NCBI RefSeq assembly: GCF_019633745.1
Contig: NZ_CP037968.1
Coordinates: 682,001-746,000, forward strand
Reading direction: 5' to 3'
Length of the DNA stretch: 64,000 nucleotides
From: Methanofollis formosanus
GTDB taxonomy: Archaea; Halobacteriota; Methanomicrobia; Methanomicrobiales; Methanofollaceae
Of this stretch, positions 19,192 to 45,000 are shown one piece after another. Every line of letters begins with the position of its first letter. Positions within the stretch are counted from its first letter, which is position 1. The notes beneath the pieces were generated by a model. It was not told where the DNA came from, ran no database searches, and saw nothing but the letters and a program-made list of their open reading frames with translations. A program made the translations under genes and the position numbers.

Positions 19192-19342
19192 ACTCGATCA
19201 ACTCCCTGCTTCTCTGAGAAGCTCTCCGTTCATCTCTCTAATCTCCGGGTTATGGTAACGAGGCTATATATTCATTCCTCTGATCCATATACGTTTTTTG
19301 AATATTATAATTATTTTACCGTTCAGATCAAATAAATAAAAG

Positions 19343-19870
19343 TATAAATATCACACTTTGAGAATCTGAGGGCTGAGAGCGGATCGCTCCAGGATCAGAG
19401 GAGCCCATTGACCTGAATCGGAGTACTTTAGATCAGGCATGAGTTGAGAGCACGCCTCAGGCATACTGGATGAAAATTTACCGTCGCTTGATCTCTCTTT
19501 TTTCAAGACTGGAGACTCGATGGAGACCTTTTTCAATCGCCGCCCCCGCCCTATCCTCGGCGTGGGAGGTCCGGGGGGCACGGCCCCCCGGCACGAGACG
19601 GCGGAGAAGATGCTGCGATTGGGGGCGGCACGCCTGATCATCACGCCTTCACCCCTCATACGCTCCGGCGGCGCCGCCTCCCTACCGCCGGGACGAAGAT
19701 CGGGGCGGGAAGGCAGAGTCCTTGATCGTTCAGAGGGTGTATTTGGTCTCTGCATACCAGTTATGGGGCTCAGCATGGTCAAATCCTCATCCGAACCGAT
19801 AGTACAGTCTTCGAGATCATTTTCATGGCAATCAGGCATGAACCCAAGGTTCATGGCCGCGTCTAACAAG
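19343..19870. repeat. Intergenic repeat family, copy 4
   Basis: Holds the ATACTGGATGAAAATTTACC and CGTCGCTTGATCTC end block, then TCGCCGCCCCCGCCCTATCC, a hairpin block GGTCCGGGGGGCACGGCCCC near 19570, and GGGGGCGGCACGCCTGATCA, in the same order as the copies at 54.4 and 60.8 kb. After this it runs into a second G/C-rich block (19667-19720). Terminal GGCTCTGTAGAA is not clearly kept. No gene is visible. Confidence 0.6.
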
Positions 19871-19886
19871 CTGTTAAGCCCTGATT

Positions 19887-21029: not shown

Positions 21030-21151
21030 TGTCCTCCGTGCGGGGTTTTGCACCCATAGATAAAATTTCAATACTATTAGTAAGGTTTGCTTTATATGAT
21101 TACATGAAAGAAGACTGTTTTATTTTTTTAATCAACCATATATAGAAAAAT

Positions 21152-21470: not shown

Positions 21471-22472
21471 TCAGGCGGGGAGGGGTGTGGGCCATCCCTC
21501 GCCATGGCCCTCTGAAAACTGAGCGACCATGTAGTCCATGAACTCGCGGGCAAGCTCCGGGTGTGGAGCGGTGTTCGGGACCGTCGCCGCATAGACGATA
21601 GGGTTGCCGATCCGCTCGCTCCCGATGGAACCAAACCGCTGGAAACCGAGTTTGACCACGGCCTTCTCATACTCATCTGCATATCCCGCCGAACTGAGGT
21701 CGATCTCGGTCGGCAGGGTGACGTACTGCAGGCCGTGCCCCTCGGCGACGCTCAGGTACTCGAAGGCATAGTCCACCCCGCCGGCGTCCAGGAGCGAGAG
21801 AAGATAGATGCTCCCGTCCCGCACCCGCACCTTCTCGCCCTCGGCCTTGAGAACCTCAGGGAGGGTGATGACGGTGGTGGTTCCTTCCTGAGAGACCGCC
21901 GGTGCGGGCCTGAGATGATCGCCGAGGATGGCGCCATAGATGGATCCGTTGCCGTAGTAGTCCCCGGCAAGCGTCGTCACCATCAGCGACCGGTAGCCCG
22001 CGGCGTCGAGCATGGGGTTTGAGATCCCGACGACGACGTCGGGTCTGGCAAGGATCTCGTACCAGTTCTCCGGGGTGATCTCGTCGGCATACGTGCTCTG
22101 GTTGGTGTAGGCGACGACCATCTGGTTGGTGGCGAAGGTGGTGTACGAGTCAGTGTAGTTCCCGTCCCCCTCCTCCATCGGCCGGTACATCATGTCGGGG
22201 ATGAGTGCCTCGTCCGCGACCACCACCACGTCGATGGCGCGGTGGAGGTCGGTCACCTGTCGCACGCACTGGATGGAACCGTGCCCCTCGATCTGGACGT
22301 CCACACCAGGGTGGGACGCCTCAAACCCTGCCTCCACCTCTTCCATAGGGAGAAGAAGGCTCCCGGCCGGGACGATCCTGAGGGTGGTGGGCGTGTCGTC
22401 GCCGCCGGTGCACCCTGCGGCCAGAACAAAGACCGCCGCAAGGGCAAGGAGAACGAGGGGGGTGCCCCTCAT
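21471..22472 (-). CDS. Tungstate/molybdate-binding lipoprotein (WtpA/ModA-like), no transporter partners
   Basis: Extracellular oxyanion-binding protein of 333 residues. The ATG at 22472 is chosen because it overlaps the upstream stop (ATGA) and starts the signal segment; the lipobox AAGC makes Cys21 the anchor. The mature part follows the WtpA pattern: RIVPAGSLLLPMEEVEAGFE, DVVVVADEALIPDMMY, ATNQMVVAY and GISNPMLDAAGYRSLM. Such proteins hand tungstate or molybdate to a WtpB/WtpC transporter, but neither is here. It is the last gene of a six-gene operon of surface proteins with molybdopterin-fold-like domains. Confidence 0.88.
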   Translation of the reverse strand: MRGTPLVLLALAAVFVLAAGCTGGDDTPTTLRIVPAGSLLLPMEEVEAGFEASHPGVDVQIEGHGSIQCVRQVTDLHRAIDVVVVADEALIPDMMYRPMEEGDGNYTDSYTTFATNQMVVAYTNQSTYADEITPENWYEILARPDVVVGISNPMLDAAGYRSLMVTTLAGDYYGNGSIYGAILGDHLRPAPAVSQEGTTTVITLPEVLKAEGEKVRVRDGSIYLLSLLDAGGVDYAFEYLSVAEGHGLQYVTLPTEIDLSSAGYADEYEKAVVKLGFQRFGSIGSERIGNPIVYAATVPNTAPHPELAREFMDYMVAQFSEGHGEGWPTPLPA

Positions 22473-23053
22473 GAACGTTTCACCTCGATCCGGTCCACCC
22501 ACTTCACCCAGGCGCTTCCCTCGGTGATGGTGCCCGGTTCATCGGTGGCGACCACGATCCTGAGCGGACCGCCGTCCCCGTCAGGGATCGCCGTCCCGTT
22601 GAACTCGTAGGCGAGGATCGGAGTGAGATCAGGTGAGGGTTTCTCCTTGAGATTCTCGTCGAAGGTCACAAAACCCTTCCCGGACATCTGCTCGTCGTCG
22701 AAGACCCAGTAGTAACCGTCGGGCGCTGAAATTCCGACCTGATCGCCCTCTTCAAACCCGCCGACGAGATCGAAGAGTGTCGTGAGGGGCACGCCCTTCA
22801 CGGTGTACGGCCCGTACTTGATCCCGACCGTGGAGACCGCATAGCCATAGCCTTCCCAGGCCGGGAGTGCCTTGATCTCTGCGAAGGAGAGCACCTTCTC
22901 CTGGGTGCCGTCGGTGACCGTGAGGTTCCAGGCGATCTCGTCTCCGGCCGAAGCCGCGGGATCGGTGGTCTCGGTGGTTCCGGTACACCCGCAGGCGGCC
23001 GCCGCGCAGATGAGGGCAAAGATAGCCAGGATCCTGACGAAACTGCGCTTCAT
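22469..23053 (-). CDS. Lipoprotein with a molybdopterin-fold-like domain
   Basis: Exported lipoprotein of 194 residues from the ATG at 23053, which overlaps the previous stop (ATGA). Cys21 or Cys23 is the likely lipid site. The rest follows the pattern of the sulfite-oxidase molybdopterin-binding fold: VKGVPLTTLFDLVGG, VGISAPDGYYWVFD, LAYEFNGTAIPDGDGGPLRI and WVKWVDRIEV. No Cys occurs at the position that binds metal in true sulfite oxidases, so a cofactor need not be bound. It sits between a membrane-anchored relative and the tungstate/molybdate-binding gene, overlapping both by 4 bases. Confidence 0.75.
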   Translation of the reverse strand: MKRSFVRILAIFALICAAAACGCTGTTETTDPAASAGDEIAWNLTVTDGTQEKVLSFAEIKALPAWEGYGYAVSTVGIKYGPYTVKGVPLTTLFDLVGGFEEGDQVGISAPDGYYWVFDDEQMSGKGFVTFDENLKEKPSPDLTPILAYEFNGTAIPDGDGGPLRIVVATDEPGTITEGSAWVKWVDRIEVKRS

Positions 23054-23898
23054 CCCCGCATCCTCCATACCAGACCGGCAACACCAAGCCCGGTCAGCAG
23101 TCCGACGATCGGGGCAGGGCTCTGCGTGGTCGGCGCGGACGTCGGGATGGTCGTCTTGACCTCGGCGGATCCCTGGAGCGACTTGACCGGGACATTCTTC
23201 GCCCCGGCATACCCGCCCTCATAGATCCGCACTTCGTCGATCCACTTCACGGTGTAGCCCGAGGTCGAGGGGTAGAGGTCGTCGAAGAGGTGGAGGCGTT
23301 CGGGCGGGAAGCACTCGCGCATATCCTGGTTCCCGAAGACATGCTTGCCCTCCGGGTTGGTGGAGTTGTCGGCAAAGAAGACCAGGCGCATGGCAGCATG
23401 ATAGTCAGGCGGATAGCCGACGCCCTGCCGCTCGCCGACGGCTGCGTCCTCGCCGTTGTACCAGCAGATCCCGATCGGGCCCTGGCGCGGTGCGGGTTCG
23501 TAGACGTTCTCGTATCCGAACTCGATGTGGTAGCCGTCGCCTGCCTTGACCATCACCTCGTCGCCGGGCGCCATCCCGCCGACCAGGTCACAGAGGTCGG
23601 CAACATTCGTGCCCTTCACCGAGCCGCGGTCCTTGAAGTTGGTGGTCTCGTTTACGTCCCACTGGGTCTCTTTGTCCTCGGCAAAGACCGGGCCCTGGTG
23701 GTAATAATGAGTCACGCCGTCCCCGAGGACCGGGAGGTTCTTCTCCATCCACTGGTAGTCGACGGTCGTCTCGTTGAGCACCGTGGTGCCGTCGTCTGCA
23801 ATTTTTACTACATACACCGAGTCCGTCGGTGCGGCCTGCACCCCTGCAAAACATGCGCAGAGGAGCAGGATCAGAAATACCCTTTTTGTTCCGTTCAT
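23050..23898 (-). CDS. Membrane-anchored surface protein with one type A molybdopterin-fold-like domain
   Basis: Exported protein of 282 residues: signal peptide (about 1-22), one domain at about 27-235, a Thr/Pro spacer and a C-terminal helix with basic tail (VGLLTGLGVAGLVWRMRG). The domain, here called type A, recurs in three other proteins of this cluster. Its marks are THYYHQGPVF, LCDLVGGMAPGDEVMVKAGD, RQGPIGICWY, MRLVFFAD and HVFGNQDMRE. The general plan matches the sulfite-oxidase fold (a W/K-G...L..L strand, then DGY-like strand, then RLVF near the end), though remote. It is 4 bases downstream of the phosphatase gene and overlaps the next gene. Confidence 0.75.
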   Translation of the reverse strand: MNGTKRVFLILLLCACFAGVQAAPTDSVYVVKIADDGTTVLNETTVDYQWMEKNLPVLGDGVTHYYHQGPVFAEDKETQWDVNETTNFKDRGSVKGTNVADLCDLVGGMAPGDEVMVKAGDGYHIEFGYENVYEPAPRQGPIGICWYNGEDAAVGERQGVGYPPDYHAAMRLVFFADNSTNPEGKHVFGNQDMRECFPPERLHLFDDLYPSTSGYTVKWIDEVRIYEGGYAGAKNVPVKSLQGSAEVKTTIPTSAPTTQSPAPIVGLLTGLGVAGLVWRMRG

Positions 23899-23902
23899 AC
23901 AA

Positions 23903-25168
23903 TCACCGTTCTTTTTTCAGCCACAGTGCGGCGATACCGAATGCCGCACCGGCACAGACAGGAGAGAGGGGCGTCTGTGCGGCGCCCTCTCCCGCACGCT
24001 GCGGTGTCATCGCAACCGTCTCGAACGTGCTGTTCGGCGGGTAGAGACTCACCACCTCCCTGCTGTCCCCGGAGAGTTGGGCCACCGGCACCACCTCGGC
24101 CGTGACTCCCTCCGCGCTCGCATGGACCCGCAAGTAGGCGAGGGTGTGTTCAAGGCTGTTCGCATACCCGGCCATCTTCTCCTCTGCAAGGGAGTAGAGC
24201 GCCTCCCCGCCGCAGGGAATCACAAAGTACGCGGTCCCGTTCACCTCGTATCGCTCGTAGGCATGGACATGCCCGCTGAAGACGCCGTCGACACCGTAGC
24301 GCTCGAAGAGCGGGGTCCAGGCCTGGCGCAGGGTACGGTCTCCGCCCCAGTGCCGTTCGTTGGACGAGAAGATCGGGTGGTGGAAGGCGGCAAAGGTCCA
24401 CCGCTCCCCGGCACCGGCGAGGTCCTCTTCCAGCCATGTGGTCTCTTCGTCGAGCCGCCCCTTTGCCCAGTCATTGGAGTCGAGGACGGCGACATGGACC
24501 TGGCCGCAGTCGAAGGAGTACCACTCCGGCATCCCGAAGGTCTCGTAGTACACCGAACGGTTCCCCTCATGGTTGCCCATGGCCGGGTAGATGGTGGTAT
24601 TTGCAAGCATCTGCCGCCCTGATGCAAAGAACTGGTTCCACTCGTCGAGGTCGTGGCCGTACGTGACGAAGTCCCCGCAGTGGAGGACAAAGGAGAGGTT
24701 TTCTTCCTCTGCAATCCGGTCGGCGACAAGTTTGTGCCGCTCAAGCGGGGTGAAATACGGGGCCTGCCCCCTCGTGTCGCTATAGACCACAAAGGTGCAC
24801 GGCCCATCTCCAAAGGTCCTGAACCGGCAGTCCGGACCGGTCACGCCGTCTGTGGTCACCGCATAGTGATAGACGGTCCCTGGGGTAAGATTGGTGAGGG
24901 CGACGTGGTGAAGAGGGGTTTTCTCCAGGTCGGTCGCCTCCGCGGTATACCCGCCCTCGAAGAAGGCCGCTTCGTCGGCGTACGCCACCGCACCACCGCT
25001 CGGCCCGGGGGTTTTCCATGAGATGACCGCCGAGGTCTCGTCGGTCCCGGTGACATACGGCCCCCAGAGGAGACCGTCCCCCGCGGCGGCGACGGCGACG
25101 GGGAGGAGGAACATGGCGAGGAAGCACCATGCTCCGAGTTTCCTGTGATCAGATCTCACGCCGATCAT
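23903..25168 (-). CDS. Exported purple-acid-phosphatase-like metallophosphoesterase
   Basis: Surface enzyme of 421 residues with a signal peptide (to about residue 29), an N-terminal fibronectin-III-like domain of the purple acid phosphatase type (VSWKTP-like VISWKTPGPSGG, TNLTPGTVYHYAV) and a calcineurin-like metallophosphatase domain. Metal-site motifs are YSDTRG, CGDFVTYG, GNHEG, FHHPIF and GHVHAYER, in the right order. A C-terminal hydrophobic segment ending in WLKKER would anchor it. It overlaps the upstream 1000-residue surface gene by 4 bases, so it belongs to the operon. Substrate unknown; extracellular phosphate release is likely. Confidence 0.88.
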   Translation of the reverse strand: MIGVRSDHRKLGAWCFLAMFLLPVAVAAAGDGLLWGPYVTGTDETSAVISWKTPGPSGGAVAYADEAAFFEGGYTAEATDLEKTPLHHVALTNLTPGTVYHYAVTTDGVTGPDCRFRTFGDGPCTFVVYSDTRGQAPYFTPLERHKLVADRIAEEENLSFVLHCGDFVTYGHDLDEWNQFFASGRQMLANTTIYPAMGNHEGNRSVYYETFGMPEWYSFDCGQVHVAVLDSNDWAKGRLDEETTWLEEDLAGAGERWTFAAFHHPIFSSNERHWGGDRTLRQAWTPLFERYGVDGVFSGHVHAYERYEVNGTAYFVIPCGGEALYSLAEEKMAGYANSLEHTLAYLRVHASAEGVTAEVVPVAQLSGDSREVVSLYPPNSTFETVAMTPQRAGEGAAQTPLSPVCAGAAFGIAALWLKKER

Positions 25169-28167
25169 TCCTTCAACCTGACCTCGCAGGTGGCCATCCG
25201 GTCAGGGACGACCATCACGTCTTCGACGGTATCGGAGTCGGAGCGCCCGACCACCTTGACCGTGTACTTCCCGAGGTCCATGCCGGTGAAGAGATGCGGC
25301 GTGACTTCGCCGGTGTTCAGTCCGTAGAGGTAGATCTTCGCCCCTGCCGATGTGCTGTTCACATACAGGGCACCGTGGGCATAGGTCTCCAGATTGAATG
25401 TGACAGAACGATCGTCGGTCCCTTTCGGGATGAGAACCTCGTCCTCCTTCGGGAGGTACCCGGGCTTCGTGACCATCACGCCATGGCGGCCGTACGAGAC
25501 ATTTTCTATGAGGTACGGGGTCGCATGCCCGGTGTCGAAGCCGTCGATGAAGATCTCGGCGCCAGCCGGTTTTGAATCGACCATGAGGGTAGTGAGGCCT
25601 GGCATCTCTTTGAGAAGTACCGTCTCGCCGTCTCCGGCATATGTCGGGATCGGGACCGAGAGGTAGGCGCCGTCATGGAAGACTGAAGCAAAGGCGTTGA
25701 GGACCGGAACCTTCACCTTTGCCGGCATCTTCTTGCCGGTGGGGTGGCCGTTGACCGCACAGTACTCCCCCTTGAAGGCCGGGGCATCCAGGGTGACCGT
25801 CCGCGTCATCGACTGTTCGTAGCGGTCGAAATAGACCGGGACGATCGTGCCGGGGATCACCCAGACCTCACGGGTGTCGACCCGATACTCGGCCTTGCCT
25901 TTTTTGACTTTCACCTTGTGCCGCCCTTCTTTGAGGCCGTTGACCACCTGGGGGGTCGTCCCCTCGATCTTCTTGCTGTCGATATAGATCGTCGCCCCCT
26001 CGTCGGTGGCGTCCACATAGACCCCGCCTGAACGCAGGTCGGTCCCCTGAGCGGCGAGGCGGTCCAGACAGGCCGGGTCGACGTTGATGTTCGGGCTGGC
26101 CGATTCGAGGGCGACCGTCACGTCGGTTTCGCCGGTGAGGTCGAAGGTGGTCTCGTAGGGACGGTAGCCCTCAAGGGCCAGTTCCAGAGAGTGAGTACCG
26201 GTAGAGAGGCCCTCAAACCTGGCCGGCGTGATCATCCCGAGGTACTCGCCGTCAAGGACGACCTGCGCCCCGGCCGGGTAGGTGATGATGTTGAGGGGTG
26301 CGCTCGCCGGCAGGGAGGGTGCAGGTGTGGAGACCGGTTCGATGGCAGGCGTCGGCGTGGGTTCAGGCGGTGCGGTCACCGCTGTCGGTGCCGGGAAGAG
26401 GGCCCCGACGAGCGGGAGATTGTGCAGCCAGCCAAAAAAGCCCGACCAGAAGCCTTCCTCCTCTGCGGTCTCGACCTCGACCTCCCTGTCCTGGATGGTG
26501 GTGGGCGGCGGAGACGAGGTGGTCTGGACGGTCGGCGGCGCCGTCGTCTGGACGGTCGGCGGTTCGGGGGTCGGTTCCTCCTCGCGGGTGCCGACGACCA
26601 GGACGGCGAGACGGTTCTCCAGATAATCCCCACGCTCGTCATACGAGACGCTGAAAACCGCAAGCGTGTTGTCGCTCGACTTGAGGTACGAGGTCACCTC
26701 GGCCTCGCCGATCGAAATATTCTCCTCGCCGGCATCGAGGAGGTTCATCCACTCCCCGTCCTGGAATGTGAGGCAGTTGGTGGAGGTGTCGTTCCCGGAT
26801 GCACCAGTCGCGACCGAGAAGACCCTGGCATCGATCGCTCCGTCTCGCGGGATCTCGTCAGGGAACCAGGCCTTGCTGGTGGCGGCCTCTTCATCGACAC
26901 CGGCAGAGGGATCGGCCTCGACGGCGTCCGCACCCTCGGCCACCCAGTACGAGATGCCTCGATGATCGTCCCTGACGACCGCAAAGAGCACTCCGCCGTA
27001 CAGGGTGAGTGAGGTCTCTGCCGGGCCGTCGGATTTCACCTCTAAAGAGCGAATGCCGCGAGGAAGGGTGGCCGGAAGGTCGTAACACCAGGTTTCGACG
27101 GCCGGACTGTCACCGTTCGGGCCGCGGTCGGCATAATAGTTCGTAAGGCTGAGCCGCTGCGAATCGAGATGAGCAGAGATGTCTTCCCGTTTCGCATCGC
27201 CCTTTGCGGTGTTGTTCGTGCCGAAAAGGTACAGGCGAGCGGTCTCGACATTCTCAAGCCCGGTGGTGTTGAGCGAGAAGCGGGCGGTCTCTCCGGCCTC
27301 GATCGTCTGTGTCTCGCCGGCGGTCCGGATAAGAGCGACCGATCCGTTCACCGTCCCATGAAGGGTCCGGGTGAGTTCCGCGCCCTCAAGGCCGCGGGGC
27401 CTGGAAGACCCGCCGTCGCCAGAGGAAGAGCCCCCCTGGTCGGGGTCGATCTCGCTGTGGATGATGATGTCAGAGACCATCTGGACCGAGACGCCGCTTG
27501 CCGATGGATAGGTTCCCTGGTAGTAATACCAGTACTCCTCGTCCCATGACTCGTGCATGTCCCAGTTGCCCCAGACATGCATTCCCGCCTCGTTCGTCGT
27601 TTCGCCCAGGAAATAAAGACGCATACCCTGCCTGAAATCTTCACCGACAGTCCCGATGTCCTTGCCATGATACCAGGCGATCACCATCGGTCCCTGCCTG
27701 GGATTGGGGTTATAGACATAATCGGCAGGCCAGGTTTTCTTCAGACCGTCTTTCGCTTTTATGGTGATCGTGTCTTCTTCGGGATCGGCCCCGCCGACGA
27801 GGTCGCAGAGGTCCATGACGTCGGTGCCCATGAACTCGCCATGATCTTTGTACTCAAGATTGACATCCTCGGTCGGGTTCCAGGCGTCATAGGGTTCGCC
27901 AGGATGGACATCTTCCCATGCTCCCTCGAAGATCGGGCCCTGGGTATAGTACATCGTCTCGCCGTCTCCCTTGACGGGAAGATTATCTCTCATCCATTCC
28001 CAGGTGACGGTCTTCTGGTCGAGGACCGTTTCGTCGTCGTTTGCCAGTTTGGTGATGGTCACTTCGGTCGTCGCCGCCGAGACCGGAACGGTGATCAATG
28101 GTGCCAGAAGGAGAAAGAGTGCGGTGACGACCAGGATTCTGGTCGCCGCTCTGTGCATTCCCTTCAT
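25165..28167 (-). CDS. Large surface protein: type A domain, DUF3344, four PEGA domains
   Basis: Exported protein of 1000 residues. Layout: signal peptide 1-32; type A molybdopterin-fold-like domain 34-238 (YYTQGPIF, LCDLVGGADP, HVWGNWDMHES); DUF3344 domain about 265-527 (GGVLFAVVRDD, YWVAEGADAVE); a Pro/Thr spacer to about 560 and again 598-625; an odd hydrophobic stretch at 572-597; then PEGA domains at about 625-690, 713-782, 859-928 and 932-998. PEGA domains usually link surface proteins to the wall or S-layer. It has no C-terminal anchor helix, so attachment must use the PEGA part or another protein. It starts 7 bases after the preceding gene. Confidence 0.85.
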   Translation of the reverse strand: MKGMHRAATRILVVTALFLLLAPLITVPVSAATTEVTITKLANDDETVLDQKTVTWEWMRDNLPVKGDGETMYYTQGPIFEGAWEDVHPGEPYDAWNPTEDVNLEYKDHGEFMGTDVMDLCDLVGGADPEEDTITIKAKDGLKKTWPADYVYNPNPRQGPMVIAWYHGKDIGTVGEDFRQGMRLYFLGETTNEAGMHVWGNWDMHESWDEEYWYYYQGTYPSASGVSVQMVSDIIIHSEIDPDQGGSSSGDGGSSRPRGLEGAELTRTLHGTVNGSVALIRTAGETQTIEAGETARFSLNTTGLENVETARLYLFGTNNTAKGDAKREDISAHLDSQRLSLTNYYADRGPNGDSPAVETWCYDLPATLPRGIRSLEVKSDGPAETSLTLYGGVLFAVVRDDHRGISYWVAEGADAVEADPSAGVDEEAATSKAWFPDEIPRDGAIDARVFSVATGASGNDTSTNCLTFQDGEWMNLLDAGEENISIGEAEVTSYLKSSDNTLAVFSVSYDERGDYLENRLAVLVVGTREEEPTPEPPTVQTTAPPTVQTTSSPPPTTIQDREVEVETAEEEGFWSGFFGWLHNLPLVGALFPAPTAVTAPPEPTPTPAIEPVSTPAPSLPASAPLNIITYPAGAQVVLDGEYLGMITPARFEGLSTGTHSLELALEGYRPYETTFDLTGETDVTVALESASPNINVDPACLDRLAAQGTDLRSGGVYVDATDEGATIYIDSKKIEGTTPQVVNGLKEGRHKVKVKKGKAEYRVDTREVWVIPGTIVPVYFDRYEQSMTRTVTLDAPAFKGEYCAVNGHPTGKKMPAKVKVPVLNAFASVFHDGAYLSVPIPTYAGDGETVLLKEMPGLTTLMVDSKPAGAEIFIDGFDTGHATPYLIENVSYGRHGVMVTKPGYLPKEDEVLIPKGTDDRSVTFNLETYAHGALYVNSTSAGAKIYLYGLNTGEVTPHLFTGMDLGKYTVKVVGRSDSDTVEDVMVVPDRMATCEVRLKE

Positions 28168-28174
28168 GGTCGGT

Positions 28175-28993
28175 TCATCTCCTCAGGACAGCGACGGCAC
28201 AGAGGGCAAGAAGACCGGCCAGCGGACCGAGAGGCGACCGGGCGGCCGTCGTCGTCGGGACACTGCCGGCATCGCTTCCGGTGTCGTGTGCCGTGATCGC
28301 AAGTTCACCTACCTGCTTGACCGAAAGCCCGCTCGTCGAGGGCCAGTCCCCGCTGAAGAAATGCCATTCATCCTCAGGAAGCGTCTCTTTCATGTCGTTG
28401 TCCCCGAAGACGTGCCAGCCCCAGGGATTTGTGGAGGTGTCGGCAAAGAAGATCAGGCGCATCCCGTCATAGTAGTCAGGGACATAGCCCGAACCCTGCG
28501 GGTCGCCGGTGAGAGAGTCCTCGCCGACGTACCAGGCAAGTCCCATCGTGCCTTTCTGCGGGTTCTCTTCATAGACCGACTCATAGGAGAACTTCTTGTA
28601 GAACCCGTCCTCGGCCTTGACCTTCAGGATATCGCCGGGGGCCATGCCGCCCACCAGGTCGCAGAGAGCGCTGACCGCGGTCCCTTTGACCGCACCGTAG
28701 TCTCTCGTGTCGACATTCTGGTATTCGGCGGGATCCCATTTGTCGGACTCGTTGAAGGTCGGACCCTGGTGATAATAATGGGTCACGCCGTCCCCGAGAA
28801 CGGGAAGGTTCTTCTCCATCCAGATGTAGTCGACCGTACGCTCATCCAGGACCGTTTTCCCGTCGGGGGCGTACTTGACGACATGCACCTCGGTCGTCGC
28901 CGCGGCCGCCGGGATCATGAAAACCAGCAGGGCAAGCACCAGCCCGACGGCCTTCAATACGCCATGATCTCTCATTTTGCGATTCAACTCCAT
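28175..28993 (-). CDS. Membrane-anchored surface protein with one type A domain
   Basis: Exported protein of 272 residues and first gene of the six-gene operon that ends with the tungstate/molybdate-binding lipoprotein. Signal peptide to about residue 31, type A domain at about 33-232 (THYYHQGPTF, LCDLVGGMAPGDILKVKAED, MRLIFFADTS, HVFGDNDMKE), Thr-rich spacer, C-terminal helix ending in VAVLRR. It is the nearest relative of the 282-residue protein at 23050-23898, which suggests duplication within the operon. The start is uncertain; an in-frame ATG six codons later gives an equally good signal peptide. Confidence 0.75.
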   Translation of the reverse strand: MELNRKMRDHGVLKAVGLVLALLVFMIPAAAATTEVHVVKYAPDGKTVLDERTVDYIWMEKNLPVLGDGVTHYYHQGPTFNESDKWDPAEYQNVDTRDYGAVKGTAVSALCDLVGGMAPGDILKVKAEDGFYKKFSYESVYEENPQKGTMGLAWYVGEDSLTGDPQGSGYVPDYYDGMRLIFFADTSTNPWGWHVFGDNDMKETLPEDEWHFFSGDWPSTSGLSVKQVGELAITAHDTGSDAGSVPTTTAARSPLGPLAGLLALCAVAVLRR

Positions 28994-29034: not shown

Positions 29035-32000
29035 TTATTTCTTCCTGAGAACCAGGAGCGCACCGAGCGCGATGAGCGGCAGGCCCCAGAAGACCGGGGT
29101 CTTCGTCGGGGTGGTGGCCGGCACCGTCGTCTCGGTCGTCTGGGTCGCAGGCCCGGTCGGGGTCTCGGCCGGCGCCTCGACCGACGGGTGGGTCACCTCA
29201 GGTTCGGCGGCCCCGCCCTTCACGGTGGCGATGGCGAAGTACGAGAAGCCCGGAGATTCAGCACGGTAGACTGCCTCTCCACCTTCTTCGCCGAGGAACT
29301 CGGTCTCAAGGTGTTTCCAGGCACCGTCGACGTACCGCAGCATGGCGATGTCGCCTGTGCCGACACCCTGGCTCGCAAGCCAGGCCGAAGGCACGGCAAA
29401 CTCGAGGGTGATCCCATCGAAAGAGGCCGGGTCGGCGCGGTACAGGGTGATCTCCTCGAATTCATAGACCTGACCCTCGGGGGTCTTGACGTCACCCGGG
29501 AGCGAGGCCTTCTTCACCGTGACCAGAAGTTCGGAGACCGGTTCGCAGGCACCGACCGTGATCTTCGAGATCGCGGTCTCGCCTACCAGGAAGGTCTTCT
29601 TCTCACCGGTCTGGAGAGAACCGGCAAAGGCGGAGACTGCAGAAGAACTGCCGGACGAACCTGAGGCCGACTTCGGCGCGGGTGCCGCCGTGCCGCCGAC
29701 CGCGAAGTACGAGAAGCCCGGCGTGGTCGCCGTGTAATACGCAGCGCCATCGCGGTTCTCCAGGTGGGTGGTGGGGAGTTGCTGCCAGGCGTCGCCATGG
29801 TACCGGTAGAGTACTACGTCGGCCGGGGCGAGTCCCTGAGCGGAGAGCCAGGTCAGCGGGACTGAGAACCGAATCTCGGCACCATCGATGTCGTCGGAAG
29901 CTGTACCGAAGGCCGAGATCTGCATGGCCTGATAGAGCGCCTTCACCGGCGCCTTCACTTCAGGCGGAAGATCGGCGCTCCCGACCGAAAGAACAAGGTC
30001 AGGGACATCTTTCCCTACGGTGACGTTGATCCGGGAGACCGGGGAATTTTTAACGGTCACGTTGACGGCTTCGCCCTTCTTGACCGGGCCGAGATCGGTG
30101 AACTCGGTATCGAGGTTGAGCCTGATCCGCTCGACGCCGCCGATCTGCATCTCAGAGGTTACGTTGGCACCGACAAGGACCAGCGGCCACTGGACTCCCT
30201 TCTCGTTCAGGACTTTGTCATTCAGGGTATTTGCGATGATGTAGTCCCTGCTGTCGATGATATCGCGGCTTGAAAGTGTTTCGACCGAACCGTCGCGGCC
30301 GACGATGTCGATGGTATATCCTTTCAGGGCGAGTTCACGGTCGAAGGCCTTTCCAGAATGTTCATTTGCATCGTCTACCCAGCCGCAGAGGAAGTACAGC
30401 GGCATGCCGCTCCAGCGGTTGCCCTGGGCGTCGACGTACTCGGCCTCGTGGTTCGCACCCATGGTGCAGGTCAGCGCGCTCTCGAAGAAACCTTTGCTGA
30501 TGTCTCTCGTGATCGCACCTTCAAGGCTCAGGTTCCAGGGTTCCTCGGCGACGGAGTAGATCCTGATCTCGCTGATCCACTTCGGCGAGATGCCACCACA
30601 GGAGGGGTACCGGATGCCGTCGGCGGAGTAGTAGTGCCAGTAGGCCTCGTCCATGCTCTCGTGCATGTCCCACTGCCCGAAGACGTGGTCTTCAGGGGTG
30701 TAGAAGAGCCGATAGCCCTCGACATAGTCAGGGACATAGCCCTGCCTCTCGGTCCACCAGACGAGGACCGCATCGCCCTGCCTGGGGTTGGGGTCGTAGA
30801 TGTTCTTCCAGCCGAGTTTGGTCTCCCAGCCGTCTTTTGCAATGAAGGAGATCTCAGTGCCTTCGGGCATGCCGCCGACAAGGTCGACGAGGTCGCGCAC
30901 GGCGGTGCCCCTGATGACATCCTCGATCTTCGGCGGATCGAGGGCCTTGTTCTCCTCGGGGTTCCAGAGGTCGTTGGGGTCGAAGGTGACGCCCTGGAAC
31001 TTGTACAGCTGGTCGTCTCCATGTACCTCGAGGTGGTCCTTCATCCAGAGGTAGTCGACCGTCGTCTCGTTGAGAACCGTGACGCCGTCGGGAGCGAACT
31101 TGACAATCCGTACCGCGGGGACCTCGGCCGGTTTCTGGAACTCGGTCAGTTCGATGGAAGCGATGCTGCCGACACTGTTGCTGCCGGCGACGTCGGCACC
31201 GACGAGCCTCAGGGGCCAGGGCGCCTTATCTCCGTCGTTCGGGAGAGCGGTGCCGTTGAGTTTGTTTGCGACGATGTAGTTGTTGTTCCGTGCAATGTCC
31301 TTGCTCAAGAACTCCTTGGAGTACCCGTCCTTCGCGGTGACGATCACTTTGTAACCGTTATCGGCAACGAGGTCGTTGAAGCCGTTCTGGCCGTGCGGGA
31401 CACGGTCGTCGACCCAGCCGCAGAGTTCCCAGAGGGCGATACCTTCCCAGCGCTCGCCGGTCTTCTGGTTGGTCCAGCTCAGTTTGTGGTGTGAACAGGA
31501 TGCGGCCTCTTCAAAGAACGCCTGGGTACAGGTGTAATCGATCGGTCCTTTCAGGGCGAGGTTCCAGGAACCTTCCGGCGCCGGGCCGGGGATGAGGTCG
31601 ACGAGGTCGATCTCGGCGACAGCCTTCACCGACTTGGGTACGCCGTCACCGACGAGTTTGAGCGGATATGACTTGTCATCCGCAGGGATCGGCTGGCCGT
31701 CCACCAGGTTTGCAAGGATGTAACCATTGTTGCGAGCGACCTGTTTGCTCCCGTATTCCTGCGACCATCCGTCAGATGCGATGACTCTGACAGTATAGTT
31801 CGTCGCAGCAAGGTCGTCGTCGAAGGTCCAGTGGTCTTTGCTCTCGATATTGTCGGAGACGCCGACAAGGAGCCAGAGGGGTACGCCGCTCCAGACGCGG
31901 TTCTCGTTGTCGGTATACTCGACCGTGCCATGGCACCCGACTTCCTCGAACTCAGCCTGGGTGACGGTGTCGTTGACCGCGCCGCAGACCTTCAGGGTCC

Positions 32001-34434
32001 AGCCCTCGTCGGGTCCGGGGAGGCCGACGAGTTCGATGGTGGCGATAGCGCCGACCAGTTGTCCGGCGTCGGCGGCGGAGCCCTTGATCTGGAGCGGCCA
32101 GCAGGGTTTGTTCTTCTCGCCGATGGTCTCGGGGAGAGGTTCGCCGTTGAGAGTGTTCGCAACGATGAAACCGCTGTTACGAGCCATATCGGCGCTCGGG
32201 ATGTTGATCGAGTAGCCGTCCTCCGAGATGACCTTCACCGAATAGCCTTCGGCGGCCAGTTCGTCGTTGAAGGTGTAGTGGCTGCCGCTCTCCTCGTCGT
32301 CGACCATGGCGACGAGCATCCAGAGGGGCATGCCGGCCCAGACGTCGCCGGTATCGGGATCGGTCCAGCTTGCCCTGTGGCTGGACAGGCAGGCGATGCC
32401 TTTCTCGAAGTCGGCCTTTGTGACGGTCGCATCGCAGGCGCCCTTCAGGGAGAGGGTCCAGTCAGTGCCAGGCGCCGGGGGGGTACCGCCGTTGACGGTG
32501 ATCGCAACCACGGCGGTCGCCGCTTCAGGGGAACCGTCGGGGCCGTAGTAGAAGATCACTTCGTCGCCGTCATGGAGCGGGTAGTTGGGGTAGCCTTCGG
32601 TCTCGTAACTATCCCAGTAGTCGAGCATCTTGCCGTTGACATAGCACTCCCAGCCCGCCTCATGCTTCACGAACGGGAAATCCGCGATGGCGTCAAGGAT
32701 GATCTTTTCGTACTTGACATTGGTGAGGTAGTCAAAGTTGCCGGCTATCGAAGCCGCGTGGAGAGCGCCGAACGGAGTGTAGTTGTCGATCTCATAGGTC
32801 TGATCTGCGGACTCCTGCGTGTAGGTGCCCTCGGTCAGGGTGACGCCACCGTTGAAGATGACCGTCTTGCCGGCGAAGGGATCTTCTCCCACCGCGACAT
32901 CGATCAGAACCGCCGCGACTGCGTTCTCAGGAGTGACACCGTCAGGCCCATAGCAGAAGACGACCTTGTCGCCGTCCTTCAGCGGATAGTTGGGATAGCC
33001 TTCCTCGGCATAATTGCCCCAGTAGGCGAGTTTCTTGCCGTTGACATAGCACTCCCAGCCCTGGACTTTCTTTTCAAACTGATATTTATCGATGGCATCG
33101 AGGACCAGTTTGTCCTGGTTGTTGTTCACGACATAGGTAAACCCGCCTTTCGTGGCCGCGGCGTCAAGTGCACCGAATGGCGTGAGCGTGTTCACCGGGT
33201 AGGCTTCGCCGGAAACGTCCAGGTTGAAGGTACCTTCAGTCAGGGTGACTCCGTCGTTGAAGATCTCATCGGTCCTCTCTTCAGGCGGGCCGAGTTCGAT
33301 CTTCGAGATCCCTTCAAGGGCCCGCTGGGTGCCGTCGACACCGGTCCCCTGCAGGTAGAGGGGGAAGAAGACGTGATCATTAATCGGGGTCAGGTTCAGT
33401 TCGATGTCGTCGAATCTGTTCCCGAGGACATAGGTCTTCTCGCCGGCCGTCACTTCGGTGGAGTAGAAGGTGGAGACATAATCAGCACTCTTCTTCTTGC
33501 CGTAGACCTTGATGGTGTAGTTCTCCGCGGCGAGGGTCTCGTTCACGGTCGTGGGGTCGTCGTCGTCGATCAGGCCGATGACTGCAGCGAGGTTCGCGCC
33601 TTCAAGGAGGCCGTACTGGTTGTGCTCGAAGGAAGCGTAGTTGTCTGCGGCAAGGGCGACGAACTCACTCCTGGTGAGCGTGCGGTTCGTCGAACCGTTC
33701 AGGAAAATGGACCAGTCCGGCGGCACGGGGTCGTTGCTGTGGATGATGGTCCTGTTGATCATCTTGACCGAGTTGCCGCTTGCAGAAGGGTACTTGCCAC
33801 TGTAGTAATACCAGTAATCCTTGTCCCAGGACTCGTGCATGTCCCAGTTGCCCCAGACATGCATCCCGGCCTCGTTCGTTGTCTCGGCGAAGAAGTAGAG
33901 ACGCATCCCCTCATTGAAACTTTCATTCACGTAGCCGATGTCCTTGCCATGGTACCAGGCGACCACCATCGGCCCCTGCCTGGGGTTGGGGGTGTAGATG
34001 TACTCTGCCGGCAGCTTTTTGCGGAACCCGTCAGATGCTTTGATCTCGACCATCTCGTCAGGGTCGGCCCCCCCGACAAGGTTACAGAGATCCTTGACGT
34101 CGGTGCCCATGAACTCGCCGTGGTCCTTGTACTCAAGGTTGACGTCCTCGGTGGGGTTCCAGCCGTCATAGGGTTCACCGGGATGGACTTGATCCCATGC
34201 CCCTTCGAAGATGGGGCCCTGGTTGTAGTAGATCGTCTCGCCGTCCCCGAGGACCGGGAGATTATCTTTCATCCATTCCCATGATACGGTTCTCTGGTCG
34301 ATGACGGTCTGGTCGTCACTGGCCAGTTTGGTAATAGTCACTTCGGTCGTTGCTGCAGCCACGGGTGCGACGAGCATCCCTGCAACTGCAAAGACCAGAA
34401 GTGCCAGAATCATAAATCGTTCCTTCATCTTCAC
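29035..34434 (-). CDS. Giant multidomain surface protein: molybdopterin-fold-like repeats, DUF4430 pair, PGF-pre-PGF
   Basis: Exported, anchored protein of 1799 residues. Layout: signal peptide 1-28; type A domain 30-233; type B domain 240-383; two DUF4430 beta-grasp domains at about 392-512 and 525-646 (GWECYVNGK, GYPNYPL, YGPDG in both); type B domains at 658-805, 811-947 and 957-1098; a second type A domain 1107-1297; type B 1299-1441; two PGF-pre-PGF domains 1443-1581 and 1604-1735 ending in PGFSYFA; Thr/Pro spacer; C-terminal anchor from TPVFW. Type B follows the sulfite-oxidase pattern (W.G..LW.L, DGYS, ANxLNG..LP, PL.L.G). Cys682, 834, 980 and 1323 lie where the metal-ligand Cys would be expected. 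The GTG at 34434 has GAGGTGAG upstream. Confidence 0.85.
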   Translation of the reverse strand: MKMKERFMILALLVFAVAGMLVAPVAAATTEVTITKLASDDQTVIDQRTVSWEWMKDNLPVLGDGETIYYNQGPIFEGAWDQVHPGEPYDGWNPTEDVNLEYKDHGEFMGTDVKDLCNLVGGADPDEMVEIKASDGFRKKLPAEYIYTPNPRQGPMVVAWYHGKDIGYVNESFNEGMRLYFFAETTNEAGMHVWGNWDMHESWDKDYWYYYSGKYPSASGNSVKMINRTIIHSNDPVPPDWSIFLNGSTNRTLTRSEFVALAADNYASFEHNQYGLLEGANLAAVIGLIDDDDPTTVNETLAAENYTIKVYGKKKSADYVSTFYSTEVTAGEKTYVLGNRFDDIELNLTPINDHVFFPLYLQGTGVDGTQRALEGISKIELGPPEERTDEIFNDGVTLTEGTFNLDVSGEAYPVNTLTPFGALDAAATKGGFTYVVNNNQDKLVLDAIDKYQFEKKVQGWECYVNGKKLAYWGNYAEEGYPNYPLKDGDKVVFCYGPDGVTPENAVAAVLIDVAVGEDPFAGKTVIFNGGVTLTEGTYTQESADQTYEIDNYTPFGALHAASIAGNFDYLTNVKYEKIILDAIADFPFVKHEAGWECYVNGKMLDYWDSYETEGYPNYPLHDGDEVIFYYGPDGSPEAATAVVAITVNGGTPPAPGTDWTLSLKGACDATVTKADFEKGIACLSSHRASWTDPDTGDVWAGMPLWMLVAMVDDEESGSHYTFNDELAAEGYSVKVISEDGYSINIPSADMARNSGFIVANTLNGEPLPETIGEKNKPCWPLQIKGSAADAGQLVGAIATIELVGLPGPDEGWTLKVCGAVNDTVTQAEFEEVGCHGTVEYTDNENRVWSGVPLWLLVGVSDNIESKDHWTFDDDLAATNYTVRVIASDGWSQEYGSKQVARNNGYILANLVDGQPIPADDKSYPLKLVGDGVPKSVKAVAEIDLVDLIPGPAPEGSWNLALKGPIDYTCTQAFFEEAASCSHHKLSWTNQKTGERWEGIALWELCGWVDDRVPHGQNGFNDLVADNGYKVIVTAKDGYSKEFLSKDIARNNNYIVANKLNGTALPNDGDKAPWPLRLVGADVAGSNSVGSIASIELTEFQKPAEVPAVRIVKFAPDGVTVLNETTVDYLWMKDHLEVHGDDQLYKFQGVTFDPNDLWNPEENKALDPPKIEDVIRGTAVRDLVDLVGGMPEGTEISFIAKDGWETKLGWKNIYDPNPRQGDAVLVWWTERQGYVPDYVEGYRLFYTPEDHVFGQWDMHESMDEAYWHYYSADGIRYPSCGGISPKWISEIRIYSVAEEPWNLSLEGAITRDISKGFFESALTCTMGANHEAEYVDAQGNRWSGMPLYFLCGWVDDANEHSGKAFDRELALKGYTIDIVGRDGSVETLSSRDIIDSRDYIIANTLNDKVLNEKGVQWPLVLVGANVTSEMQIGGVERIRLNLDTEFTDLGPVKKGEAVNVTVKNSPVSRINVTVGKDVPDLVLSVGSADLPPEVKAPVKALYQAMQISAFGTASDDIDGAEIRFSVPLTWLSAQGLAPADVVLYRYHGDAWQQLPTTHLENRDGAAYYTATTPGFSYFAVGGTAAPAPKSASGSSGSSSAVSAFAGSLQTGEKKTFLVGETAISKITVGACEPVSELLVTVKKASLPGDVKTPEGQVYEFEEITLYRADPASFDGITLEFAVPSAWLASQGVGTGDIAMLRYVDGAWKHLETEFLGEEGGEAVYRAESPGFSYFAIATVKGGAAEPEVTHPSVEAPAETPTGPATQTTETTVPATTPTKTPVFWGLPLIALGALLVLRKK

Positions 34435-34613
34435 ATACTCACCTCGTTATCCAGAGGGGGGCCACCTTTCAAAAGGTAAACGTAATAAATCTCCCCGCGG
34501 AGACATAAAAAGGATTACTCGATTTAAAGAGTTAATTTAACCTCATTAACGGAGGCGTTTGAAAATCCAGGAATACAGCCAATTTCAAAAATAATATCAC
34601 ATACTGCCAATTT

Positions 34614-34654: not shown

Positions 34655-36901
34655 TCATACCTTTTGTCTGATCAGTACTACCGCACCGATCGCAACGAGA
34701 GATCCAGCCCATACGGGCGAGGATTGCTGCGAAGGAGTGGTGGGCACGTCGTCTCCAGACAGACCAGATGCCGCTCCCTCCTGCGCGACCTGCACCTCAT
34801 CGCCCGGCACCCCGGCGACGGCGAAGAGGGAGAGATCATCCGACGATGCCGAGAACTCCTGGTACCCGTCCCTCACGGCACCCGCATCGGTGGCGAGCGG
34901 CGTCCAGGCGGTGCCGGCATGGCGCATCAACGCGACGTCGCCGGGTTCAAGGTTCTGCTCCTCCATCCAGGAGAGGGGGACCCGGAAGGTGACCGTGACC
35001 GACGTCGGGTCGGCCCGTGCGCCATGCAGGCCGACCTCCAGGTAGCGGTAGACCGGGGCGTCAGGGGCCTGCACCGCGCCGGCGCTCTCCCGGTCATGTA
35101 CCTCGACATGGAAGGGAGCGCGCTGCTCAGGGAGAGTCACCGAGACCTTCTTGACGACTGCATTGTCGGTGATGAAGGCCCTGGTCATCGGTGCGGTCGA
35201 TGATGCGGAACCGGCATCCCCACCGCTCGGGGGGGTGCCGCGGGTCGCGACCAGAACGGCGACCCTGCTCTCCAGCACCCCGCCGCTGGCGGCATCCTTC
35301 GTCGCCCGTATCATGGCGATGTTCTCTCGCGGGAAGAGCACCGGCAGGACGTCGAGATCGGCCGTCACCACGTTACCCTGGGCCTTCAGGGCGTCGGTCC
35401 ACTCGCGGTCATTGAACCCGACGGTCCCGGTCGACCCGGTGCCTGCTATCAGGAGACGGGCGGCGGCCGTCTGGTCGAGGTCGAGGGCATCGTCGAAGAG
35501 GGCCCGACTCACGGCGTCGTCCTCGAAGACTCCGTCTTCCTCGTCGATGGCGACGGCATCGCACCCGGCCACGACCTGCCAGACGACCTCGGGGAGGGCC
35601 GGGTCTTCACGCACCACCAGGAGCACCCCGCCGTCGAGGGTGCAGACTTCATCACCGCTCCCGGTGTTCTCGACGGTGACAAACGTGTCGCCCGACCTGA
35701 TCCCGTCAAGCTTGAAGACAGAGGTCGCCGCCACCGGTGCGTCCTTCTTCCCTGCCCGGTCGGTGAAGGTCTCATCGGGCTCGACCGTCTTCCCGTCGAT
35801 CTGGACAGTCAGGTGCGGGTCGGTCCCGGCCCCGTCATCTCCTTTCTTTGCATCGCTCACGAAGAGATAGAAGACCGCGGTCTTGATCGTCCCGGTCCCG
35901 TTCCCCGGATTGAGGGTGAGGCTCGCGCGCTCGCCTGCCTTCAAGGTTCCACTGCTCCCGGCGACCGGGAGGAGCGAGACCGAGCCGTGCAGACACTCGC
36001 CGGCGGGAGCTTCCATCTCGTTTCCGGAGAGACCCGAAGCGTCCGACGTCCCGTCACTCCCGCCGTCGGGCGAGACATCGCCCCCGCCGGAAGGCGCCGT
36101 CCCGACGACCGAAAACCCGCTGCTCCCGGCCCCTGAGACGCGGTTGGTCCAGGAGATGCCCAGGCCCTGGTTGGACTGGTTGCACCAGCCATAGGAGTTG
36201 AAGGCGGCATAGGTGGGCAGATTCTCGAACTCGTACTCGATCTTGACGGCGCCGTTATCGATCATGTCCGCGATCAGAGCGTTCTCACCGAGGGTTCCGG
36301 CATGGAGATCGATATAGACGGTGTGGAAGGGGTTCGAACCGTCGGAGACGTCCTGGCCGTAATAGATCGGATATGCCCCGGGCTGATTGTTCCCGGCGGG
36401 TTTCCAGGTCTGCGGGCTGTACACAAAGTCGTCCTTCGTGATCGTCCCCTCATACGTGCCGTCGACATACTCGACCTCGTCGGCGGCGGGAGGCGTGTTC
36501 ACCACCGGCGTCGGGGTCCACTGGTAGCCGCTCGCCCTGATGTGGAGGGCGAAGTCGTCGGGGATGGTGCCGTTGACCGCGACCATCAGGATCATGTCGT
36601 CGGTGAACCCTCTCCCACCGGTGTTGGTGAGATAGAAGACACCCGACTGTTCCTCGGTGGTCGTCACCTGTCCGTACGGTTCGCTCTCCGGGTCGGTGCT
36701 GATGTGGAGGGCGTTGAGCCCGCCGCCTTCGAACTTGAAGAACTTGGTCAGCCCGTCGGAGAGCTGGAGGTCGAAATTGCTGGTGCCGGGCATCGTGATC
36801 CCGCCCACGTCGTCGGCCACGACCGGGACGACACAGACGGTGAGCAGGAGGAACGCCAGTGCAAGAAGGGATCTTCCCATTTTTTTTCCGATATCATTCA
36901 T
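34655..36901 (-). CDS. Surface protein: two-half N-terminal domain, DUF3344, PGF-pre-PGF, anchor
   Basis: Exported protein of 748 residues. Signal peptide to about 29. The N-terminal domain, called D here, has half 1 at 55-128 (GLNALHISTDP, GVFYLTNTGGRGF, VNGTIPDDFALHI) and half 2 at 154-268 (KDDFVYSPQTWKP, VYIDLHAGTL, VKIEYEFENL, GISWTN, GFSVVG). DUF3344 follows at about 300-560 (GGVLLVVRED, VVAGCDAVAID), then a PGF-pre-PGF domain at about 575-705, and a C-terminal anchor after SSPVWAGSL. Function unknown. The ribosome site is GGTGGG, 7 bases before the ATG. Confidence 0.82.
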   Translation of the reverse strand: MNDIGKKMGRSLLALAFLLLTVCVVPVVADDVGGITMPGTSNFDLQLSDGLTKFFKFEGGGLNALHISTDPESEPYGQVTTTEEQSGVFYLTNTGGRGFTDDMILMVAVNGTIPDDFALHIRASGYQWTPTPVVNTPPAADEVEYVDGTYEGTITKDDFVYSPQTWKPAGNNQPGAYPIYYGQDVSDGSNPFHTVYIDLHAGTLGENALIADMIDNGAVKIEYEFENLPTYAAFNSYGWCNQSNQGLGISWTNRVSGAGSSGFSVVGTAPSGGGDVSPDGGSDGTSDASGLSGNEMEAPAGECLHGSVSLLPVAGSSGTLKAGERASLTLNPGNGTGTIKTAVFYLFVSDAKKGDDGAGTDPHLTVQIDGKTVEPDETFTDRAGKKDAPVAATSVFKLDGIRSGDTFVTVENTGSGDEVCTLDGGVLLVVREDPALPEVVWQVVAGCDAVAIDEEDGVFEDDAVSRALFDDALDLDQTAAARLLIAGTGSTGTVGFNDREWTDALKAQGNVVTADLDVLPVLFPRENIAMIRATKDAASGGVLESRVAVLVATRGTPPSGGDAGSASSTAPMTRAFITDNAVVKKVSVTLPEQRAPFHVEVHDRESAGAVQAPDAPVYRYLEVGLHGARADPTSVTVTFRVPLSWMEEQNLEPGDVALMRHAGTAWTPLATDAGAVRDGYQEFSASSDDLSLFAVAGVPGDEVQVAQEGAASGLSGDDVPTTPSQQSSPVWAGSLVAIGAVVLIRQKV

Positions 36902-37017
36902 CGTATTCCCACCATTGGTTGAAAGAGGGTTCAGGATATGCTCCTGTATTTTCTTCTCGACAGATGAAATTTGTTTTTTGAGAGAAGTTCATGAGATCTG
37001 GTTAACTGCATTGGGGC

Positions 37018-39802: not shown

Positions 39803-39973
39803 GTAAATCACCCCGTATAATGGACAATATCATAAAAAAGGCAATATATTGTCAACATGAGACAAAATAAGCCCTAAAAATAGTTCAATACGCGATTGAT
39901 TAATCTTTGCCATTTAGAATCAAAAATTAAATGGATTAAATTAACTAATTTAAAAACAGAGAGATTGAGGTCT

Positions 39974-44107: not shown

Positions 44108-44330
44108 CTTTTTCACCTTTCGTCCCTTTCAGGACAATTTTCACGGCTTGTTCATGTCCGGCAGCCGGGCACCGGTTAACAGATTTTATGGACTCTTTTT
44201 TAGAATTTGCAACATATAAGGGTATCTTTTTTAATTCAGAGCATATTAAACTGGTAAAATTAATCTTATTGATTCAATAACAATCAATCAAAAAAGAGGG
44301 AATTATCTGGACCTTTTCCAGTCCCTGCAA

Positions 44331-44909
44331 TCAGACATTGTAAAGATCGATGATGAAATCGGTGATCTCCTCGACCGATCTGTCCGTGCTACTACACCCA
44401 TATCCGTGCAACTTCAGGGGGTAGTAGTATCTCCAGGTAATCTTGGGGTCAGGATAGCCGTCTGGACTGAGGTATTCGTCGTCAAGTTTGTCGGCGACGA
44501 CAAACGCACTTGAATTCTCTGCGTCAAGTAACTCGGAACTGTAGAAGGTCGAAGTTCTCGCGACATTCTTGTTTTTCCCGACCACCTTGATGGTGTAGTT
44601 GCCCTCAGCAATAAATTCGTTAAAGGTGGATGTTGTGTCGTCATCGAAGTAGCCGATCAACCGTTCAAGTGTTGTCCCGCTCCATTCTCTCTTCTTCGGA
44701 TCGGTAAAAGTAGCCGGATCGGTCTGGGTCAGCCCAATGAAAGTGCTGTTGTCGATGGTGGTGTTCGTCCATGTGTTGTCGTCATTCAACCGGCAGAGGT
44801 TGACCGGCCAGTCAGCCGCCGAGACCGGGATGACGCAGAGTGCGACCATGAGCAGGAGCGCCGTTGCGATCGCCCATGGAGAAGAGTTGTAAAGGAAATT
44901 TTGTTTCAT
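44331..44909 (-). CDS. Small secreted protein with one type B domain
   Basis: Exported protein of 192 residues from ATG 44909, which has GGTGAG 5 bases upstream and begins the signal peptide. The mature part is one type B molybdopterin-fold-like domain (REWSGTTLERLIGYFDDD, YTIKVVGKNKNVARTSTFYS, AFVVADKLDDEYL, YYPLKLHGYG) with no Cys at the presumed ligand position. It has no anchor helix, so it is either released or held by another protein. It is most similar to the first type B domain of the giant protein, including the TSTFYS segment. Confidence 0.75.
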   Translation of the reverse strand: MKQNFLYNSSPWAIATALLLMVALCVIPVSAADWPVNLCRLNDDNTWTNTTIDNSTFIGLTQTDPATFTDPKKREWSGTTLERLIGYFDDDTTSTFNEFIAEGNYTIKVVGKNKNVARTSTFYSSELLDAENSSAFVVADKLDDEYLSPDGYPDPKITWRYYYPLKLHGYGCSSTDRSVEEITDFIIDLYNV

Positions 44910-45000
44910 GTTTCTCACCTGTTTGCTCCTGTCTGTAGAACCACTCATGAAACGACATTTCAGGTGGTTTCATGTACTCCAACAAGTGCCAGAGTTAAAT

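Follow-up and report, generated by a model that had tools for sequence, protein, structure and literature searches.

We propose that a seven-gene operon of the archaeon Methanofollis formosanus (g1 to g7 in order of transcription, minus strand) is the surface module of a tungstate/molybdate importer, feeding a substrate-binding lipoprotein encoded by its last gene, here called WtpA2, and through it the permease and ATPase WtpBC; we give this reading a probability of roughly 0.55. The operon lies within a 64,000-nucleotide stretch (the window; positions 682,001 to 746,000 of contig NZ_CP037968.1) of a 2.97 Mb single-contig genome. The module is real and widely conserved, and it seems to be an add-on to, or variant of, the Wtp system, not a new kind of system. 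The first enzyme of CO2-reducing methanogenesis requires tungsten and molybdenum (W/Mo), metals in short supply in sulfidic anoxic water. The suggestion of the initial annotation of this DNA that the surface proteins belong with W/Mo uptake is supported by their adjacency to WtpA2, by frequent linkage to WtpBC and by a promoter dyad in common with modABC/MOT1 and wtpA.

The six genes of that annotation, g2 to g7, were all found where it had placed them when the open reading frames were read from the sequence, and a 1799-aa protein, g1, opens the unit ahead of them, with 41 nt between g1 and g2. Mostly 4-base overlaps had been described; these are present at three junctions (g7/g6, g6/g5 and g4/g3), given internal ATG starts for g7 and g6, while 4 nt lie between g5 and g4 and 7 nt between g3 and g2. 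The same reading revealed lipoprotein signals on g6 and g7 and a C-terminal hydrophobic stretch with basic residues in g1, g2, g4 and g5. The expected exported phosphatase is g4, purple-acid-phosphatase-like, which matches PF00149 (63.2 bits, cut-off 21.5) and PF16656 (43.0 bits, cut-off 30) and carries GD, GNHE and GHVHAYER motifs.

The WtpA/ModA-like lipoprotein of the initial annotation, g7, scores 332.5 bits against TIGR03730 (WtpA; curated cut-off 242.75) and is homologous to the structures of MA_0280, AF_0094 and MJ1186. WtpA2 forms a group separate from canonical WtpA, with 38–42% identity to canonical sequences and 53–89% inside the group. In Pyrococcus furiosus WtpA, tungsten is ligated by Asp160 and Glu218, and changing Asp160 abolishes selectivity (PMC10221389). 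The residue corresponding to Asp160 (D166) is kept in all 78 WtpA2 homologues, the ligand columns having been placed via AF_0094, MA_0280 and MJ1186 and not via the P. furiosus protein itself. Because of this conservation WtpA2 looks, as judged from its sequence, able to bind an oxyanion, and an oxyanion therefore fits better than a cofactor as the transported form. No permease or ATPase gene lies beside g7, so that the term orphan, used in the initial annotation, is apt for this locus; it does not extend to the genome, which holds a second WtpA, with WtpB and WtpC, ~92 kb from the operon, as well as TupABC, ModABC and a MOT1-type transporter whose gene adjoins modA (PF16983, 181.1 bits). Elsewhere both permease and ATPase genes stand beside WtpA2 (loci L027 and L032), and genome G007 has an additional WtpB-like permease. 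In genome G030 the WtpA2 gene is broken into two frames (L034, 11124–12126) by a frameshift or a sequencing error.

The linkage of these genes recurs far beyond this genome. WtpA2 (at least 53% identity) and g6 co-occur in the same 20 of 41 relatives from the order and are adjacent in all 20, where the usual order is giant protein, type A, type A with PEGA repeats, phosphatase, type A, type B and WtpA2 (the domain types are described below); across the phylum, g6 is present in 43 of 392 sampled genomes. Two genomes that have no canonical WtpA (G015 and G018) show an operon of g5, g6, WtpA2, WtpB and WtpC, and in another relative (G016) the cluster has canonical wtpABC as its divergent neighbour. 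A scan of genome contigs with the type A alignment gave 75 distinct loci, drawn from the top 80 of 168 confirmed matches. Since these loci were picked by type A similarity, the A gene itself is no evidence, and the evidence lies in g6, WtpA2 and WtpB: g6 stands beside the A gene in 73 loci, WtpA2 is found in 71, the two are within 120 nt of each other in 68, and WtpB directly follows WtpA2 in 20 of the 62 loci with at least 1000 nt beyond it. The seven loci without g6-WtpA2 adjacency (L106, L107, L117, L151, L170, L173 and L174) include several short contigs. A further W/Mo transport gene (MOT1, Tup, Mod or canonical WtpA) occurs in 13 of the 75, and the phosphatase recurs in 41. The sources comprise Methanomicrobiales, Methanosarcinales, anaerobic methanotrophic (ANME) archaea, Argoarchaeum and a few records labelled bacteria (L168 and L170–L173, at 47–56% identity); L136 and L148 probably represent mis-binned archaea. 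In Methanoculleus sp. FWC-SCC1 (L140), MOT1, the surface cluster, WtpABC and TupABC all lie inside 20 kb.

The surface proteins are built from three repeated domain types, A, B and T, all of which have the sulfite-oxidase (SUOX) fold. Only g6 (type B) and g1 match PF00174 by sequence, with 43.0 bits (cut-off 24) and 48.6 bits, respectively; no Pfam family was matched by g2, g5 (49% identical to each other, both type A) or the N-terminus of g3, and the assignment of these last to the same fold, a guess in the initial annotation, was upheld by structure prediction. The AlphaFold2 model of type A (g5, 46 sequences; predicted local distance difference test, pLDDT, 79.5; predicted template modelling score 0.76) has as its best Foldseek match, and the sole one at E ≤ 0.001, the pterin-binding protein PruR (7kom, E 6.9e-4). 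In VIA-align, it superposes on chicken sulfite oxidase with Z 10.6 (root mean square deviation, rmsd, 4.6; 155 aligned residues) and on PruR with Z 10.2 (rmsd 3.0, 128 aligned), compared with Z ≤ 6.3 for structures outside the SUOX/PruR group. For type T, the first strong domain of g1 was modelled (29 sequences, pLDDT 94.1), and this model reaches Z 16.1 against chicken sulfite oxidase (rmsd 2.3, 130 aligned) and Z 14.4 against PruR. For type B, hhalign against an eight-sequence SUOX family alignment gives a probability of 97.0 (E 1e-10); type T reaches 94.7 against the same reference, with which type A gave no sequence alignment (probability 0.3). Profile comparisons connect A to B (probability 97.9) and B to T (98.3). 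A single YedY sequence was too weak as an hhalign reference, and phmmer searches of the PDB sequences with g1 and the T profile gave no strong match.

None of the three types keeps the Mo-ligating Cys. In hhalign, the YedY Cys aligns with Asp38 of T, an Asp in 179 of 197 T domains, and with Thr80 of B (Thr in 81 of 84) or, when realigned, with Ala77 (Cys in 11 of 84); residues 79–80 of g6 are Ser/Thr, and type A has a conserved YYHQGP loop and no conserved Cys across residues 58–100. Cys28 of the T domain (conserved in 158 of 197) was considered as a Mo ligand and rejected on its position in the model and on hhalign: it ends the helix before a strand, and Asp38 comes after that strand. These residues bear on the idea of a surface Mo/W oxidoreductase, in which the domains would carry a cofactor for redox catalysis. 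The membership of g1 and g6 in PF00174 speaks for it, as does the near-invariant Asp of T at the Cys position, given that Ser and Asp are described as Mo ligands in other enzymes (PMC13259868); the missing Cys in all three types makes such an enzyme most improbable, as does the Pfam search of the seven proteins, which found neither a further oxidoreductase domain nor a partner for electron transfer.

The same fold can be read as a grip on a pterin. The SUOX domains would then bind pyranopterin cofactors (molybdo- or tungstopterin and their dinucleotides) from dead cells, the phosphatase would cleave phosphate, other parts of the module would help to degrade the cofactor, and the freed metal would pass to WtpA2 and be imported by WtpBC. 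This scavenging pathway is possible, if doubtful. The SUOX fold holds the molybdenum cofactor in enzymes, PruR, the best match of type A, is itself a Cys-less SUOX-fold pterin binder, and the phosphatase, found in 41 of the 75 loci, is fused to type A elsewhere in the same genome; on the other side, WtpA2 retains the oxyanion-ligand Asp, no phosphatase was found in the other 34 loci (some being cut contigs), and no cofactor-binding residue could be mapped on the domains. PruR has Trp in place of the Mo-ligating Cys and binds tetrahydromonapterin in a truncated site described as unlikely to hold the molybdenum cofactor (PMC13259868). The fusions just mentioned, of type A with purple-acid-phosphatase domains in proteins of ~1400–1600 aa, occur in this and other genomes of the genus (L035–L043 and L046), at loci without WtpA or WtpB, and the fusion of L035 adds a NosD beta-helix.

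PruR acts as a sensor partner (PMC13259868), which raises the prospect that the proteins sense a pterin or redox ligand at the surface and that the Wtp linkage reflects control of uptake. PocR/PAS sensor genes do lie directly downstream in several genomes of the genus. We regard sensing as very unlikely, because no signalling protein was seen after the triplet of type A, g6 and WtpA2 outside the genus loci, and because so many large repeated domains would be unusual in a sensor. In the window, two PocR-PAS-HisKA-like sensor genes (18016–21071) directly follow g7, and one or both are retained in several genus genomes.

A further connection to W/Mo uptake comes from the promoters. Sequences upstream of g1 homologues show the dyad GTTAA-N10-TTAAC or a short core of it. 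The window contains five sites with at most one mismatch against 0.22 expected, and none of 100 shuffles reaches five; three of them lie 86–115 nt upstream of g1 and of the upstream genes u1 and u2, and the other two (45417 and 49933) do not match the island. Of the 10 cluster-bearing genomes of the genus, 8 have a strict dyad in the 150 nt ahead of g1, and the dyad is present at modA/MOT1 in all six genus genomes whose modA-MOT1 region was read and at canonical wtpA in 4 of 12. The examined loci contain 29 sites: 11 at g1, 6 at modA/MOT1, 4 at canonical wtpA and 8 elsewhere, three of these last in other type A loci. In loci L100–L174, not used for motif discovery, there were 12 matches (N10 or N0/N1 form), 9 of them at the first cluster genes, and one for the reversed control. 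Among 457 stretches of 200 nt preceding open reading frames in the genus loci, 17 hold a strict site; these loci were partly selected for their targets, and the set is thus no clean null. The relatives sharing the dyad are not independent, and no probability was assigned to the pattern. In this genome, seven sites of the general form compare with 12 for the reversed pattern; one lies at g1, one between MOT1 and modA, one ahead of the gene for a protein with Peripla_BP_2 domains, and the rest at other or unclear genes. The Peripla_BP_2 protein (736 aa; L083, 2962–5291; dyad at a distance of 105 nt) is encoded near an ATP-binding cassette transporter named FecCD-type from its sequence, and this locus could be another importer of W/Mo or another metal within the same regulon. 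The sequence GTTAACnnnGTTAAC lies 9 nt upstream of a gene for a 77-aa winged-helix-like protein (L084, 5035–5291), and 9 of the 12 genus genomes have such a site; the protein is a possible regulator with related half-sites, and only a lead.

Several observations weigh against a dedicated W/Mo module. Half of the relatives from the order have no cluster and rely on other importers. Twenty other type A loci (L035–L054) have no WtpA, WtpB or g6, and the A domain alone is therefore no W/Mo marker. In WtpA2, the column that we take to be that of the Glu ligand (Glu218 in P. furiosus; Glu in AF_0094, MA_0280 and MJ1186) is Ser in 78 of 78 sequences, as it also is in most canonical WtpA sequences of this order; an earlier placement with Tyr at this ligand was dropped after AF_0094 indexing. 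The dyad shows no numerical excess, with 65 sites against 98 of the reversed pattern in the 12 genus genomes, and therefore only its location is informative; 36 of the 65 lay outside the examined loci. Furthermore, the canonical wtpA of this genome has no visible dyad in 300 nt, and a search at E 0.01 found ModE (TIGR00637) in none of the 12 genus genomes, so that it was set aside as a candidate regulator.

The type A loci that have neither WtpA nor WtpB also favour a structural or adhesive role, in which the domains would merely space out proteins of the cell wall and their linkage to W/Mo genes would be incidental; the PEGA, Big_2, NosD, DUF3344 and PGF-pre-PGF modules found here are common among surface proteins. 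The adjacency of the triplet across orders and in some bacteria, and the dyads in common with modABC/MOT1, are hard to call incidental, and we consider this role quite unlikely.

For the surface module of a W/Mo importer, which we prefer, the following mechanism may be envisaged. The Cys-less SUOX domains, borne on anchored or multi-domain surface proteins, would concentrate W/Mo species at the cell wall, assisted by the exported phosphatase, which may release oxyanion or cofactor from phosphorylated material. The lipid-anchored g6 and WtpA2 would constitute the last step ahead of the permease, with WtpA2 taking the oxyanion and handing it over to WtpBC, presumably those of the remote wtpABC in this genome and the neighbouring ones elsewhere. 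The operon is probably controlled via the dyad, by a regulator that acts on genes of W/Mo uptake.

Related domains extend upstream through genes as far as 44948 (Table 1), and a u1 homologue lies upstream of g1 in those genus loci long enough to reach it. The T domains of g1 span residues 237–384, 655–805, 808–947, 953–1099 and 1296–1442, and this protein also has DUF4430-like stretches (below cut-off), PGF-pre-PGF and a C-terminal anchor. Further along the window, an energy-coupling factor (ECF)-type transporter, with a double ATPase and a CbiQ-like protein, is encoded at 52089–54319.

Table 1. Genes and candidate operator sites of the operon and the upstream region, in window coordinates.
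Feature	Position	Strand	Basis or remark
g7, WtpA2: WtpA-family tungstate/molybdate-binding lipoprotein	21471..22502	-	TIGR03730; start codon probably the ATG near 22472
g6, type B: lipoprotein with a single SUOX-fold domain, lacking the Mo-Cys	22469..23068	-	PF00174, hhalign
g5, type A: exported SUOX/PruR-fold protein, C-terminal anchor	23050..23898	-	AlphaFold2 model, VIA-align
g4, exported purple-acid-phosphatase-like metallophosphoesterase, C-terminal anchor	23903..25168	-	PF00149, PF16656, motifs
g3, type A domain with DUF3344 and PEGA repeats	25165..28167	-	Pfam; similarity to g2/g5
g2, type A: exported SUOX/PruR-fold protein, C-terminal anchor	28175..28993	-	49% identity to g5
g1, surface protein of 1799 aa with five T and two A domains	29035..34434	-	PF00174, TIGR04213
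Dyad GTTAA-N10-TTAAC, strict; candidate operator	34531..34550	.	97 nt upstream of g1 (counted to the core)
u1, DUF3344 surface protein, probably part of the island	34655..36901	-	PF11824
Dyad, 1 mismatch	36987..37006	.	86 nt upstream of u1
u2, Big_2 surface protein, possibly part of the island	37037..39811	-	PF02368
Dyad, 1 mismatch	39926..39945	.	115 nt upstream of u2
u3, NosD beta-helix protein carrying a single T domain (379-527)	39974..44116	-	PF05048
u4, small protein carrying a single T domain (43-203)	44331..44948	-	T-domain match

A conserved surface module tied to Wtp would explain how the two metals are obtained by these archaea, by the methane oxidisers and by some bacteria. It would also assign a function to many proteins annotated merely as molybdopterin-binding surface proteins. 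The dyad offers a handle for mapping the W/Mo regulon in methanogens without detectable ModE. Were the scavenging of cofactors true instead, it would be a pathway common to methanogens, anaerobic methane oxidisers and some anaerobic bacteria. Among the papers listed by literature searches, limited to open-licence papers, none described this linkage between surface proteins and Wtp, and within that literature the module seems an undescribed addition to a known uptake system.

Comparison with known systems places the operon near four of them. As in the ModE regulon, a single dyad is common to several W/Mo uptake promoters, but here no ModE was found in 12 genus genomes and the dyad sequence is its own. 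Sulfite oxidase and YedY (MsrP), of PF00174, are close in fold to type T (Z 16.1) and in sequence to g6 and g1, both above the Pfam cut-off, whereas the present domains have no Mo-ligating Cys and no catalytic partner and are repeated as surface modules. Like PruR, type A is a small exported SUOX-fold domain without the Mo-Cys, and PruR is its best Foldseek match; PruR, however, is a single sensor of ~170 aa beside a cyclic di-GMP enzyme, while here many anchored multi-domain proteins stand beside the metal-binding protein of an importer. To our knowledge, characterised WtpABC systems have not been described with such a surface-protein block, behind which the WtpA2 of this locus stands without WtpBC and with Ser in the Glu-ligand column; the likeness to WtpABC lies in a WtpA2 that passes the family cut-off, keeps the ligand Asp and has WtpB next to it in 20 of the 62 testable loci.

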